Positions 2 to 41,188 of a stretch of DNA of 64,000 nt are shown here, piece after piece (the first letter of the stretch is position 1; each line of letters begins with the position of its first letter). The position numbers and the translations under genes were made by a program. The notes under the pieces are model-generated. The model saw only the letters and a list, made by a program, of their open reading frames with translations. It was not told the origin of the DNA and searched no databases. This DNA is from Leucobacter rhizosphaerae (GTDB lineage Bacteria; Actinomycetota; Actinomycetes; Actinomycetales; Microbacteriaceae): contig NZ_CP095043.1 of assembly GCF_022919175.1 (NCBI RefSeq), forward strand, positions 372,001-436,000, in the 5' to 3' direction.

Positions 2-925
2 CGGCTCGAGGCCGGGGCACTGCCCGAGGTGCATGACAACGGCACGCGGGTGCTGTGGCCCGCGTCGACGGCCACGCGCACGCTCACCGTGATCGAGCAG
101 TCGAGTGCGCTGCGCTCGCTCGGCCACGTCGACGCGGTGCTGCCGATGCTGCACGGGCCGTACGGCGAGGACGGCACGGTGCAGGGCATGCTCGACCTCG
201 TCGACCTGCCGTACGTCGGGAGCGGGGTGCTCGGGTCGGCGCTCTGCATGGACAAGCACGCCGTGAAGACGGTGCTCGCGGACGCGGGGATCGCCGTGGC
301 GCCGTGGCGCACGGTGACGCAGTCGCAGATCACGCGGGATCCCTCGCTCGCGGAGACGCTCGACGAGGGGCTGCAGTATCCGCTCTTCGTGAAGCCGGCG
401 CGTGCGGGTTCGAGCGTGGGGGTGAGCCGGGTGACGGACGCCTCCGAGATCCCGGCCGCCCTGGAACTGGCCTTCGCCGAGGACCGCACCGTACTCATCG
501 AGTCCGGTGTGACCGGCCGCGAGGTGGAGATCGCCGTGCTTGAGGGACGCGGGCAGGACGGGCCGCGCACGAGCAGCGTGATCGGCGAGATCGTGTTCAC
601 GGGCCGCGACTTCTACGATTTCGAGGCGAAGTACCTCGGTGCCGCGGGCGTGGAGCTCGAGCTGCCGGCACGCGTCACGGAGGGGGAGTTCGCGTCGATC
701 CGGGATGCCGCGGTGCGGGCGTTCGAGGTGACGCAGTGCGCGGGGCTCGCGCGGATCGACTTCTTCCTGACCGCGGACGGGCCGGTGCTGAACGAGATCA
801 ACACGCTCCCCGGGTTCACCCCCATCTCGATGTATCCGCGGCTGTGGCAGGAGTCGGGTCTCGGGTACACGGAGCTGATCACGGAGCTCGTGGAGCTCGC
901 GATCGAGAAGTCCGCCGCGTATTAG
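2..925 (+). CDS. ddl: D-alanine--D-alanine ligase, 5'-truncated by window edge
   Basis: Cytoplasmic ATP-grasp ligase that joins two D-alanines for the peptidoglycan stem peptide. The frame is open from base 2 with no start, so the N-terminus lies outside the window. Visible motifs are HGPYGEDGTVQG (substrate loop), FVKPARAGSSVGV (ATP-grasp) and, near the C-terminus, GLARIDFF followed by LNEINTLPGFTPISMYPRLW (Mg-ATP and D-Ala binding, typical of Ddl). The stop codon at 923-925 runs directly into a 7-bp tandem repeat. In related actinobacteria ddl is commonly followed by the DUF3515 gene and thiL; here a DUF559 gene sits between. Confidence 0.95.
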   Translation, partial: RLEAGALPEVHDNGTRVLWPASTATRTLTVIEQSSALRSLGHVDAVLPMLHGPYGEDGTVQGMLDLVDLPYVGSGVLGSALCMDKHAVKTVLADAGIAVAPWRTVTQSQITRDPSLAETLDEGLQYPLFVKPARAGSSVGVSRVTDASEIPAALELAFAEDRTVLIESGVTGREVEIAVLEGRGQDGPRTSSVIGEIVFTGRDFYDFEAKYLGAAGVELELPARVTEGEFASIRDAAVRAFEVTQCAGLARIDFFLTADGPVLNEINTLPGFTPISMYPRLWQESGLGYTELITELVELAIEKSAAY

Positions 926-986: not shown

Positions 987-1058
987 CCATGCGGTGGTCA
1001 CTCGTCATGCGGTTAAAGAGGCAGGTTCCTGACCGCATGAGCTGCGACAACCGCATGA
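987..1058. repeat. Symmetric four-half-site element, upstream copy
   Basis: Four 9-bp half-sites: CCATGCGGT (987-995), TCATGCGGT (1005-1013), ACCGCATGA (1032-1040), ACCGCATGA (1050-1058). Spacers are 9, 18 and 9 bp, giving a 72-bp element with perfect dyad symmetry around 1022/1023. A second element with the same geometry lies at 2036-2107, on the other side of the DUF559 gene. It could be an operator array, a recombination or nuclease target, or the ends of a cassette. Confidence 0.85.
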
Positions 1059-1185
1059 GTGGACGCGGGCCCGGACACCGCCACGCCGCTGACGGCATTC
1101 GTCGCTCCAGGCTGCGGACGGCGTACGCGGAAGTCTGATTTCTCCACTGTTCTCGAGAGCTGTTCACCGCTCCACCGGACTCGGG

Positions 1186-1191
1186 CACGCT
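1186..1191 (+). promoter_or_regulatory. Putative leaderless -10 of the DUF559 gene
   Basis: CACGCT lies 6 nt before the ATG at 1198. It is a one-base variant of the TANNNT boxes found at the same distance before many other genes here. Confidence 0.45.
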
Positions 1192-1197
1192 GCAACC

Positions 1198-2070
1198 ATG
1201 AGCTCGCTCTTCGACCTGCTCCGCGCGCGTGATGGCATTGCGCGCACGAGCCTGCTGCGTGACGCGGGGGTCACCCGTCGTGACATCGATCGTGCGTTCG
1301 CGGCTGGTGCAGTGGTGCGTCCGCGACGCGGGTGGATCGCATTGCCGGCGGCCGATCCGGCATTGCTGCTCGCCGCGCGCCAGCACGTGGTGCTGAGCTG
1401 TGTGACGCAGGCGAAACGACTCGGGCTGTGGGTGCGCGAGCCGTCTCCGGTGCCGCACGTCGCCGCGCCACGTGCGAATGCGCACGTGCGTGGGGTCGGA
1501 GTCGTGGTCCATTGGAAGCGGCCTGTCGTGCCACGACCGCCGTTCTTGTTGGCGGACGGGATCGAGAACCTGCTGTGCCACGTGGCTGAGTGCCAACCTT
1601 CGGAGGATGCGCTCGTGATCTGGGAGTCCGCGCTCAACGCCCGGCTCGTCACGCACGGGCACCTGGCGACGCTCCCGCTCGGACGCGCGGCTCGGCGCAT
1701 CCTGGACGCCAGTAGCCCGTTTGCGGACTCAGGACTTGAGTCGATCGTGCACGCGCGCCTGCGGTGGATCCCGGCGCGGATCCGACAGCAGGTGGTCATC
1801 GCCGGGCATCGCGTCGACTTCTTGATCGGCTCGCGGCTCGTTCTGCAGATCGACGGAGCTCATCACACGGGCGCCCAGCGCACGAGCGACATCGCACACG
1901 ACGCCCGGCTGCTCCAACTCGGGTACACCGTGATCCGGGTGTCGTATTCCCAAGTGATGTTCGCGTGGGAAGAGGTGCAGGATTCGGTGCTGCAAGCGAT
2001 GGCACGGGACAGACACCTCGTCGCAGCCGGGCACACTCTGCGGCCCTCACACCTCACGCGGTCGCTGTAA
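1198..2070 (+). CDS. DUF559 (Vsr-like nuclease fold) protein with N-terminal winged-helix domain
   Basis: A 290-residue protein. Residues about 5-70 resemble the AbiEi-type antitoxin winged helix (start LFDLLRARDGIARTSLLRDA, then RRGWIAL). The C-terminal third has the DUF559 / very-short-patch-repair endonuclease pattern: a VDFLIG strand, LQIDGAHH, a D/R-rich helix and LGYTVIRVS. Proteins of this build are common in Microbacteriaceae but their role is not settled; DNA binding or nicking is plausible from the fold. The gene sits between ddl and DUF3515, is preceded by CACGCT 6 nt upstream (possible leaderless start), and is bracketed by two copies of a symmetric 72-bp element. The downstream copy overlaps its last codons. 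It could be one half of a toxin-antitoxin-like module, but no partner gene is present. Confidence 0.75.
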   Translation: MSSLFDLLRARDGIARTSLLRDAGVTRRDIDRAFAAGAVVRPRRGWIALPAADPALLLAARQHVVLSCVTQAKRLGLWVREPSPVPHVAAPRANAHVRGVGVVVHWKRPVVPRPPFLLADGIENLLCHVAECQPSEDALVIWESALNARLVTHGHLATLPLGRAARRILDASSPFADSGLESIVHARLRWIPARIRQQVVIAGHRVDFLIGSRLVLQIDGAHHTGAQRTSDIAHDARLLQLGYTVIRVSYSQVMFAWEEVQDSVLQAMARDRHLVAAGHTLRPSHLTRSL

Positions 2071-2107
2071 CCCGATTCGAACCGCCTGACGCGCAGCAAC
2101 CGCGTGA
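2036..2107. repeat. Symmetric four-half-site element, downstream copy
   Basis: Half-sites CTCTGCGGC (2036-2044, weakest), TCACGCGGT (2054-2062), ACCGCCTGA (2081-2089), ACCGCGTGA (2099-2107), with the same 9/18/9 spacing and 72-bp length as the copy at 987-1058. The half-sites are diverged versions of TCATGCGGT. The left half lies inside the 3' end of the DUF559 gene. Confidence 0.75.
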
Positions 2108-2151: not shown

Positions 2152-2658
2152 CTACATCCCCAGGTTCTCGGCGAGGCTGGTGCACTTGCGCTCCTGAGGA
2201 AGCTCGCGGGCCACCGCGCTCAGGTCGTTCACCACATCGGTGCCGCTGAGCTGCTCGGATTCCACGAATACCTCGAGGCCGGGGCTGCGCCCGTACGCCT
2301 CGAAACGGTAGAGCGGGGCAGCGCTCTCGTCGATGATCCAGTCGACGCCGTTCACGTTCACGCACGTGTCGGTCGTGGGACCGCTGGGCTCGATCCCGCA
2401 CCGCAACTGCACCACGGCCGGATCGCCCCAGGCGCCCGTCGACTGCGCGTTCGTCGTGCGGCGGTCGAGCTCGGCCACGGTGTCGGGCAGCCGCACGATC
2501 ACATCGGCGCACGCCGGGCTGTTCGCGTCCGCGGCCGGCTCCATCGGCACCTCTCCGGCACACGCCGCGAGCAGCGGTGCGAGCGCGACCCCCGCAATAC
2601 CCGCGGCCAACATCCGTCGTGCACGCGTGCGGCGCGGCCTGATCTCGTGCGAAGTCAC
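2152..2658 (-). CDS. DUF3515 family lipoprotein
   Basis: A 168-residue secreted lipoprotein. After a basic start (residues 1-15) comes a hydrophobic segment ending in the lipobox LLAAC, with Cys33 as the lipidated residue. The rest matches DUF3515: ACADVIVRLPDTVAEL, WGDPAVVQLRCG and TDTCVNVNGVDWI, with several cysteines that may form disulfides. Family function is unknown; its constant place beside ddl and thiL in actinobacteria suggests an envelope role but proves nothing. The GTG start at 2658 is favoured because TAGGCT lies exactly 6 nt upstream. It is divergent from thiL, with 47 bp between the start codons. Confidence 0.88.
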   Translation of the reverse strand: MTSHEIRPRRTRARRMLAAGIAGVALAPLLAACAGEVPMEPAADANSPACADVIVRLPDTVAELDRRTTNAQSTGAWGDPAVVQLRCGIEPSGPTTDTCVNVNGVDWIIDESAAPLYRFEAYGRSPGLEVFVESEQLSGTDVVNDLSAVARELPQERKCTSLAENLGM

Positions 2659-2705: not shown

Positions 2706-3827
2706 GTGAGCAGCAGGCGTACGGAGACCGGAACCGGAGTACCGACCGGTGCCGACACGGGATCCGATACTGTCGGCATTGCCGGTGAGGCGGGTGTGCT
2801 CCGGCGTGTCCTCGCGCAGCTGGCGCCCTCGGAGGCCGCCGTGGTCGGCCCCGGGGACGACTCGGCAGTGCTGCGGGTCCGGGGTGACCTGGTGGTGACG
2901 AGCGACACCATGATCGAGGGGCCGGACTTTCGCCGCGCCTGGCACCGCGGCTTCGATCTGGGCTGGAAGCTCGCCGCCACGAACCTCTCCGATGTCGCGG
3001 CCATGGGTGCGCGGCCGACCGGCCTCACCGTCTCGCTCGCGGTGCCTCGCGACACACCGGTCGCGCTGCTCGAGGAGATCGCCCGCGGCCTGACGGCGGC
3101 CTGCGCGGCGCTCGCACCGGGCTGCGGGGTCGTCGGAGGCGACCTCGGCACCGCTCCCGTGATCACGGCCGCCGTGACCGCGATCGGTGAGCTCGACGGC
3201 ACTCCGCCCGTGCTGCGGAGTGAGGCTCGGGCGGGGGATCAGGTCGCGTACGCCGGGGATCTCGGTCTCGCGGGCCTGGGGCTCACCCTGCTGTTCAGCG
3301 ATGGCGTAGACGCAGACGGCGTTGCGCACGCCCGCGGGATCGCGCGGCACTTGGCCACGCACCCTCGATTGCTCGCGGCCCAACTCGCCCCGACCCCGCC
3401 GATCGCTCTCGGCCGCATCGCGGCGCAGGCCGGGGCGACGGCGATGATGGACGTCTCCGACTCCCTGTCCCTCGACGCGGACCGACTCGCGCGGGCGAGT
3501 AGTCGCGACCCGGAGGCGGCAGAGACCTCATCCACGAAACGCTCGCAGGCCGTCACGATCGATCTCGATTCGGCGGGGCTGCTGCACGCGTTCGGCGAGC
3601 AGCACGGAGAGTCGGTCCCACTGGAGGCCATGCTGGCCGGGGGAGAGGATCACGGTCTGCTCGCCGCATTCCCGGCCGATACGACGCTGCCGGCGGGCTT
3701 CCACCGCATCGGCAGCGTCGTTCCCGCGGTTGCAAGATCCGCGGCACTCACCCTGGACGGCGACCCGACCGAGCCCCGCGGGTGGGATCCCTTCACCGTG
3801 CGGCTCCCGGGCCTCGGCGAGGTGTAG
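2706..3827 (+). CDS. thiL: Thiamine-monophosphate kinase
   Basis: ATP-dependent kinase converting thiamine monophosphate to thiamine diphosphate, last step of thiamine cofactor synthesis. A 373-residue member of the AIR synthase-related (PurM-like) family: GPGDDSAVLRV and the TSDTMIEGPDF Mg/substrate loop near the N-terminus, LAATNLSDVAAMGARP, VVGGDLGTAP, and the C-terminal lobe with MMDVSDSLSLDADRLA and LAGGEDHGLLAAFP. It is longer than many ThiL proteins (about 320-340) because of an N-terminal Ser/Thr/Gly-rich stretch and a loop near residues 263-280. The GTG start is set by the -10 box 6 nt upstream. Confidence 0.94.
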   Translation: MSSRRTETGTGVPTGADTGSDTVGIAGEAGVLRRVLAQLAPSEAAVVGPGDDSAVLRVRGDLVVTSDTMIEGPDFRRAWHRGFDLGWKLAATNLSDVAAMGARPTGLTVSLAVPRDTPVALLEEIARGLTAACAALAPGCGVVGGDLGTAPVITAAVTAIGELDGTPPVLRSEARAGDQVAYAGDLGLAGLGLTLLFSDGVDADGVAHARGIARHLATHPRLLAAQLAPTPPIALGRIAAQAGATAMMDVSDSLSLDADRLARASSRDPEAAETSSTKRSQAVTIDLDSAGLLHAFGEQHGESVPLEAMLAGGEDHGLLAAFPADTTLPAGFHRIGSVVPAVARSAALTLDGDPTEPRGWDPFTVRLPGLGEV

Positions 3828-40901: not shown

Positions 40902-41188
40902 GGAGCCTCCCGCTGCGATGCATCGGCGTCGCGCGATCGGACGTGCGTGCACGTCAAGCGGACGCTGCGCTGCAAGCGGCCAGAATCGGGAGATCTGGAC
41001 CGTTTGGGCGGTGAGATCCGCGCGACGTGTTCCGTGTCAGGCGATAAAATCCCTGATCGGAACAAAAATTGCATTTCCCGCGCGTGTGTGCCAGGATTGA
41101 TGAGTTCGCGCCGGTGGCGCGTTGATGCTTCCGTTCCGGACTCGGGGCGGTGTTTCTCTCTGCAGTACTCAACACATAGGAGTCATTC
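40902..41188 (+). other. Intergenic region before the rpsP operon
   Basis: 287 bp with no gene seen. The AT-rich core at 41045-41100 carries the promoter proposed separately; about 90 nt of leader follow before rpsP, ending in ATAGGAGTC as ribosome binding site. Confidence 0.6.
41069..41097 (+). promoter_or_regulatory. Promoter of the rpsP-khpA-rimM-trmD operon
   Basis: TTGCAT (-35, 41069-41074) and CAGGAT (-10, 41092-41097) with a 17-bp spacer, preceded by an A-tract (AACAAAAA) that could act as an UP-like element. Confidence 0.6.

Follow-up and report, generated by a model that had tools for sequence, protein, structure and literature searches.

Four-part palindromes bracket AbiEi-DUF559 nuclease genes in Leucobacter and recur as dispersed copies with lineage-specific words

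To our knowledge, REPIN/RAYT is the best-known long-lived partnership of a bacterial enzyme with dispersed palindromes. As described, a low-copy enzyme gene lies beside palindromes, copies of the same family are dispersed through the genome, each enzyme gene has a family of its own, and a long co-evolution has been proposed (PMC3116915, PMC8049555). An enzyme with dispersed palindromes is, as an idea, already known. Proteins of the AbiEi family are described as binding to their own promoter through sets of inverted repeats, which number two or, as with Rv2827c, four (PMC7319586); the EDxHD homing endonuclease I-Bth0305I is reported to dimerise on a target of nearly 60 bp (PMC3943268); and VsrA of Caulobacter, which has a DUF559 nuclease domain, is described as tied to a cytosine methyltransferase (PMC12907096).

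The window analysed here is a stretch of 64,000 nucleotides of Leucobacter rhizosphaerae (C1:372001-436000), whose genome, designated G000, is one contig of 3.34 Mb. The features around the locus, in window coordinates, are the following.

29..925, + strand: ddl (D-Ala-D-Ala ligase), left neighbour of the window gene
987..1058, no strand: upstream element; half-sites 987-995 and 1005-1013 forward, 1032-1040 and 1050-1058 inverted; spacers 9/18/9
1198..2070, + strand: window gene (DUF559 gene), 290 aa; AbiEi-like DNA-binding part and DUF559/I-Bth0305I-like nuclease
2036..2107, no strand: downstream element; half-sites 2036-2044 (degenerate), 2054-2062, 2081-2089 and 2099-2107; spacers 9/18/9
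2152..2658, - strand: DUF3515 gene, right neighbour of the window gene
2706..3827, + strand: AIRS-domain gene (read as thiL in an earlier note on this DNA), context

That earlier note had described a DUF559 gene interposed between ddl and the DUF3515 gene, and both points were borne out: the window gene splits the two neighbours, and its product matches DUF559 above the Pfam cut-off (E 8e-10). Matches to AbiEi_4 and REase_MTES_1575 lie below the Pfam cut-off, and the PADLOC AbiEi model matches with E 9e-6. The AbiEi-like, DNA-binding part covers about the first two thirds of the protein and the nuclease approximately residues 176-275. The predicted structure (mean pLDDT 93) matched the AbiEi antitoxin 6y8q (E 2.5e-5, 196 columns) and also 1zel, while the nuclease part of the model aligned with the catalytic domain of I-Bth0305I, 3r3p_B, over 93 columns (rmsd 2.3, TM 0.81 of target). 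The profile match of the nuclease domain to the homing-endonuclease family had E 0.0011.

Among 69 aligned relatives, all matched DUF559 and 45 matched AbiEi_4 (E 0.01). The residues invariant across the alignment include E181, D207, D219, H223, D231 and D235, which are putative catalytic residues. G000 has two further genes of the AbiEi-DUF559 kind, whose products share 56 and 50% identity with that of the window gene. No nucleotidyltransferase toxin gene of the AbiE type IV kind was found adjacent to the window gene, its neighbours being ddl and DUF3515, and positions 900-2750 of the window yielded no sigma-70-like promoter and no intrinsic-terminator consensus. The last ~15 residues of the window protein (2023-2070) overhang five aligned relatives and are partly encoded within the downstream element.

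Both 72-bp elements were recovered as first described, with four half-sites each and spacers of 9, 18 and 9 bp. The upstream element, with half-site words CCATGCGGT/TCATGCGGT, fitted 31 of the 32 template positions that were scored and reached a flank-scan score of 34; the downstream element, with words TCACGCGGT/TCAGGCGGT, fitted 28 of 32 and reached 25. The first half-site of the latter (CTCTGCGGC, 2036-2044) is badly degenerate, and the element overlaps the last codons of the window gene (stop 2068-2070). The two elements are far from identical, and their inverted alignment is better than the direct one. Across 640 kb generated with an order-1 Markov model the top template score was 22, a comparison that is not an independent test because the template was taken from the finding itself. 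A motif-free palindrome scan ranked the upstream element of the window gene (L001), both elements of L002 and both of L003 on top, and the downstream element of the window was absent from its best palindromes. Directly 3' of the downstream element, at 2108-2145, CGCGCCGGGACACCGGCG occurs in two exact copies 20 bp apart.

Each of the three AbiEi-DUF559 genes found in G000 lies between two elements, and the half-site word differs from gene to gene: TCATGCGGT-type for the window gene, TCATGCAGA (outer) and TCCTGCTGA (inner) for L002, and CATGCAGG-type for L003. At a uniform threshold of 26, four of these six flanks qualified, the window downstream element scoring 25 and the L003 upstream element 24. 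Across the genus, 44 of 54 genomes encode an AbiEi-DUF559 protein (E 1e-20), with 74 copies in total and 0-4 per genome. The flanks of these genes were scanned with variable spacing at the centre, which superseded a scan with fixed centre spacing. An element scoring at least 26 was found upstream of 30 of 72 genes (shuffles 0/216) and downstream of 27 of 71 (shuffles 4/213), compared with 1/122 and 5/120 for real 500-bp control segments at the same threshold. The 30 upstream elements begin 168-271 bp ahead of the projected gene start, with a median of ~204 bp.

The layout that the earlier note had proposed looking for at both ends of homologous genes recurs, with elements on both sides of 19 genes and on at least one side of 38 of the 72, but it is not universal. 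At the same score of at least 26, neither flank of the remaining 34 genes carries an element, and such homologues had been named in that note as evidence against its reading. Its other observation, of geometry preserved while half-sites diverge, was upheld, since such paired elements recur at the homologous genes. When the period was varied over 143 flanks, period 18 gave up to 34 flanks scoring at least 25 (at the best centre spacing), and every other period from 11 to 26 gave at most 7; the geometry is therefore non-random. Half-site similarity correlated with protein similarity over 37 genes (r 0.49, 0/2000 permutations), a relation that linkage alone could produce. Of 21 genes with elements scoring at least 25 on both sides, 10 have pairs that align better in direct orientation and 5 pairs that align better inverted (including the window pair), and 6 were undecided. 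The flanking pairs of highest similarity (L066, L034, L043, L037) are direct repeats.

Elements also occur away from the genes of this family. Solo copies, lying apart from such a gene, numbered 12 in G000, 11 in G017 and at least 25 in G051. In G000, 33 half-site pairs fit CANGCGGT-N10-CANGCGGT when a single mismatch is allowed, compared with 5 for the control. Twenty-two of them belong to four-part elements, 3 in the window pair and 19 in the 12 solos elsewhere; 9 others lie at loci without a four-part element and 2 at loci outside the examined set. The template scores of the 12 solos ranged from 26 to 31 of 32. A thirteenth, degenerate copy lies in the window itself.

40954..41025, no strand: degenerate 13th solo of G000, 25/32; the orthologous position in G051 holds an intact TCAGCCGGT solo

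The small cassette proposed earlier stands in so far as the gene is bracketed by elements, but not as a self-contained unit, the elements being dispersed through the genome. Of 51 solos placed against crude gene calls, 30 follow the end of a called gene within 60 bp, 2 are located between divergent genes, and 2 overlap a called gene by ~15 bp.

The words of the solo families match those of a resident gene mostly, though not always. Pairs of TCANGCGGT numbered 20 in G000, and none of the 53 other genomes had more than 2. Pairs of CAGCCGGT numbered 58 in G051, 27 in G017 and 15 in G045, where the genes carry CAGCCGGT, and at most 5 elsewhere; in G032 the gene carries the near word TCAGCCGGA, yet only 4 matches of CAGCCGGT were found there (control 6). 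For TCGGTGAG, 44 matches in G009 and 31 in G010 accompany the matching genes L058 and L101, and in G001 13 matches accompany gene flanks that contain the word without a full element at the threshold. The genes found in G002 (22 matches) and G023 (12 matches) have no paired matching flank, and G053 (8) and G005 (6) show no clear excess although their genes L067 and L064 carry the word; these TCGGTGAG counts are to be read against a background of 0-8, which the reversed-pattern control (0-1) fails to capture. In G002 the TCGGTGAG solos accompany a single gene without a matching flank and are possibly an orphan family.

Solos were compared at orthologous positions, the comparison set comprising all 11 solos of G017, 25 loci of G051 and 4 loci of G012. 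Five of the 12 G000 solos have an orthologously placed counterpart in at least one of G017, G051 and G012, with flanks 67-90% identical. The word had changed between these genomes: all 48 half-sites counted in G000 have G as base 5, and none of the 156 counted in G017, G051 and G012 does. The search patterns chose part of the half-sites counted, but in the other genomes each pattern fails to detect pairs of the other word. The 11 solos of G017 have exact half-sites throughout (44 of 44), and their spacers agree on average at ~20 of 36 positions. Spacers of solos at shared positions are modestly more alike than background, except for the glyS pair of G017 and G051 (12/36), and with agreement this modest some shared positions could represent separate insertions.

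In G012, three of the four loci have an element, with 7 of 12 half-sites exact. Decay in this genome is not demonstrated, because G051, which has the gene, is similar (56 of 100 half-sites exact), and the observation that G012 has fewer solos following the loss of the gene is no more than suggestive.

A comparison of ddl-DUF3515 junctions with and without the gene had been proposed earlier. The gene is present at this junction in G000, G017, G051, G032 and G045, whereas 22 gene-free junctions were counted at the loci extending as far as ddl (25 of 30); 21 of the 22 measure 31-239 bp and one 897 bp. Three of the gene-free junctions, L175, L177 and L182 (G023, G025 and G006), carry a four-part element with other words. 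Within the clade that has the gene, G012 is without it at this junction and has two other family genes elsewhere (L083, L089). With one and the same junction occupied in five genomes, the frequent movement expected of the mobile element suggested earlier is not seen for the window gene.

Single solo positions were also followed across genomes. The glyS tree contains the clade (G000,(G017,(G051,G012))) with supports of 0.83, 0.98 and 0.998, and a solo at the 3' end of glyS is present only in this clade, among the 30 of 52 loci examined. The generic glyS scan overlooked the G000 solo in favour of a higher-scoring stretch; this solo is known from the template search. Among 26 genomes without the solo, 2 reach a score of at least 26, in stretches that lie 124-142 bp past the stop codon and contain no known word. 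By eye, the glyS 3' ends of 8 outgroups (L321, L325, L327, L323, L329, L324, L341, L337) have ordinary terminator-like hairpins. The element may have replaced an outgroup-type hairpin at this gene end. Beside the solo at 1.86 Mb of G000 lies a transporter gene, and among its 30 loci (one of them too short) a solo within 350 bp is present only in G000; in G017 and G051, a solo lies farther from that gene than the scanned 350 bp.

Copies within a genome can be closer to each other than to their orthologs. The upstream and downstream elements flanking the G017 gene are identical at 71 of 72 positions, compared with 55 of 72 with the G051 ortholog. In G009 (L379, ~1300-2400), two elements of the same orientation enclose a DUF429 gene that occurs in 2 of 54 genomes; in G010 (L400), one element accompanies this gene. 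The G009 copies are identical to each other at 74 of 76 positions and to the G010 ortholog at 68 of 76, and the second of them has no counterpart in G010; as the DUF429 gene occurs in these two genomes alone, there is no outgroup and gain and loss are indistinguishable for this polymorphism. The pair at L380 is weak, its second element lying at a contig end. Taken as sequence comparisons, the likeness within genomes and the presence or absence between sisters point to copying or conversion of elements.

Folded as single-stranded DNA, four of five elements were more stable than shuffled sequences, with z below -4, and the window downstream element gave z -1.6. The central 18 bp covary within genomes (0/1000 permutations in G051, 19/1000 in G000, 28/1000 in G017), and the 9-bp spacers showed no significant within-genome covariation (z -1.4 in G017, 0.0 in G051 and 1.1 in G000). 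An Rfam search of 8 loci returned nothing but a tRNA.

These results are probably best explained by a nuclease and a dispersed family of target palindromes that belong to it and evolve along with it, a system similar in behaviour to REPIN/RAYT and unrelated to it. A protein that joins an AbiEi-type DNA-binding part to a Vsr/EDxHD-like nuclease would recognise four 9-bp half-sites, two per arm and 18 bp apart, which it would presumably bind as a multimer. Because AbiEi relatives bind sets of inverted repeats and the I-Bth0305I dimer spans nearly 60 bp, it is plausible that the fusion could bind four half-sites over 72 bp. The gene has one element on each side, and further solos occupy intergenic positions elsewhere, often close behind gene ends. 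The palindromes are long-lived and change from species to species along with the gene. Nicking or cutting at an element, with repair from another copy, might occasionally copy or convert elements. A bolder form of this explanation is put forward tentatively, at somewhat less than an even chance: that the fusion of AbiEi and homing endonuclease causes its four-part target to be copied and to evolve in concert across bacterial genomes, as a transposase-free counterpart of REPIN/RAYT, that its specificity and dozens of chromosomal sites shift together, and that the elements take over hairpins behind genes.

The main rival requires no cutting. The elements could be operators or chromosome-organising sites of a regulon, with half-sites kept by selection on binding and without copying by a nuclease. 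Rv2827c, the AbiEi relative with four inverted repeats in its promoter (PMC7319586), is a precedent; drifting spacers beside conserved half-sites and the joint difference at base 5 across shared positions also agree with it. An operator, however, needs no copy behind the gene, the upstream elements start well ahead of the projected gene start, solos lie far more often behind gene ends than between divergent genes (by the crude gene calls), and the putative catalytic residues of the protein are invariant. Together with copies that are closer within a genome than between orthologs, and with the sister polymorphism, which point to copying or conversion, these observations make a regulon unlikely. 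In another account, the palindromes are independent REP-like or terminator-like hairpins, spread by another enzyme or by recombination, with the DUF559 gene as a passenger. This agrees with the folding results and central covariation, the hairpins seen by eye in the glyS outgroups at the position of the clade's solo, the elements around the DUF429 gene of G009 and the solo families without a matching gene. It is nevertheless highly unlikely, given three genes with three words in one genome, each word on both sides of its gene. Moreover, the two cleanest solo families (TCANGCGGT and CAGCCGGT) track resident genes, word similarity follows protein similarity, and no Y1 transposase was found in the 54 genomes.

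A homing-type mobile gene, in which a unit of element, gene and element inserts into solos through nuclease-provoked repair, would account for the relationship of the nuclease domain to a homing endonuclease and for the most similar flanking pairs being direct repeats, as integration at a solo would leave them. The gene-free junction of G012, inside a clade having the gene there, would fit as well. Against this, the window gene has no near-identical copy elsewhere (G000 paralogs 50-56%, best aligned relative 62%), occupies one junction in five genomes and leaves its presumed target undisrupted, so that homing is decidedly unlikely here. Many short inverted repeats arise in high-GC DNA, but shuffles, real-sequence controls and recurrence at orthologous positions leave chance or base composition with a negligible share.

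The likeness to REPIN/RAYT lies in a low-copy enzyme gene (0-4 copies per genome, those of G000 being distinct from one another) beside palindromes that are cognate at 3 of 3 genes in G000 and present at 38 of 72 in the genus, in dispersed non-coding copies of the same palindrome, and in different palindrome families for different enzyme genes within G000. The enzyme, in contrast, is an AbiEi-DUF559 protein and not a Y1 transposase: a search with PF01797 for Y1 HUH transposases (IS200-like, RAYT-type) matched 0 of 54 genomes and 5 of 14 control genomes. The element differs as well, consisting of four 9-bp half-sites with an 18-bp period, with direct repeats as the most similar flanking pairs. 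The window protein shares its nuclease fold with I-Bth0305I, whose long dimer target is a precedent (PMC3943268), but is encoded by a chromosomal gene between ddl and DUF3515 and has an AbiEi-type DNA-binding part. Unlike in homing genes, the presumed target elements flank the gene, with intact copies on both sides and elsewhere, and the gene disrupts no target. The first two thirds share the fold of AbiEi antitoxins and Rv2827c (6y8q, 1zel), from which the protein differs in its fusion to a nuclease and in sites that also lie behind the gene and dispersed. With VsrA it shares the DUF559 nuclease domain, its partner being a palindrome family and not a cytosine methyltransferase (PMC12907096).

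Because RAYT fails on the enzyme, homing on target disruption and AbiE on the missing neighbour toxin, the arrangement appears to be a partnership of repeat and enzyme that has not been described before. In the open-access literature, covered by titles and abstract starts, no description of a DUF559/AbiEi gene with such palindromes was found. If the preferred explanation is true, an unrelated actinobacterial enzyme acts similarly to RAYT, and the arrangement has arisen more than once; DUF559 proteins with AbiEi-type DNA-binding parts would also gain a concrete substrate. As the words vary between lineages while the geometry is fixed, the genomes provide a natural series for the joint change of specificity of a protein and many chromosomal sites.

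The spacing was also determined at 61 loci (122 flanks) of Microbacterium and others, a count that includes L266 (labelled Planococcus) and L287/L292, whose elements have identical letters. Period 18 gave 42 and period 19 gave 40 flanks scoring at least 26, with at most 4 flanks for each of the periods 12-17 and 20-25. The copy at L266 lies on a Planococcus-labelled contig among matches that are otherwise from Microbacterium and Leucobacter, and the record may be mislabelled. At L397 and L398 of G010, one arm has four half-sites at the 18-bp period, so the number of units can vary.
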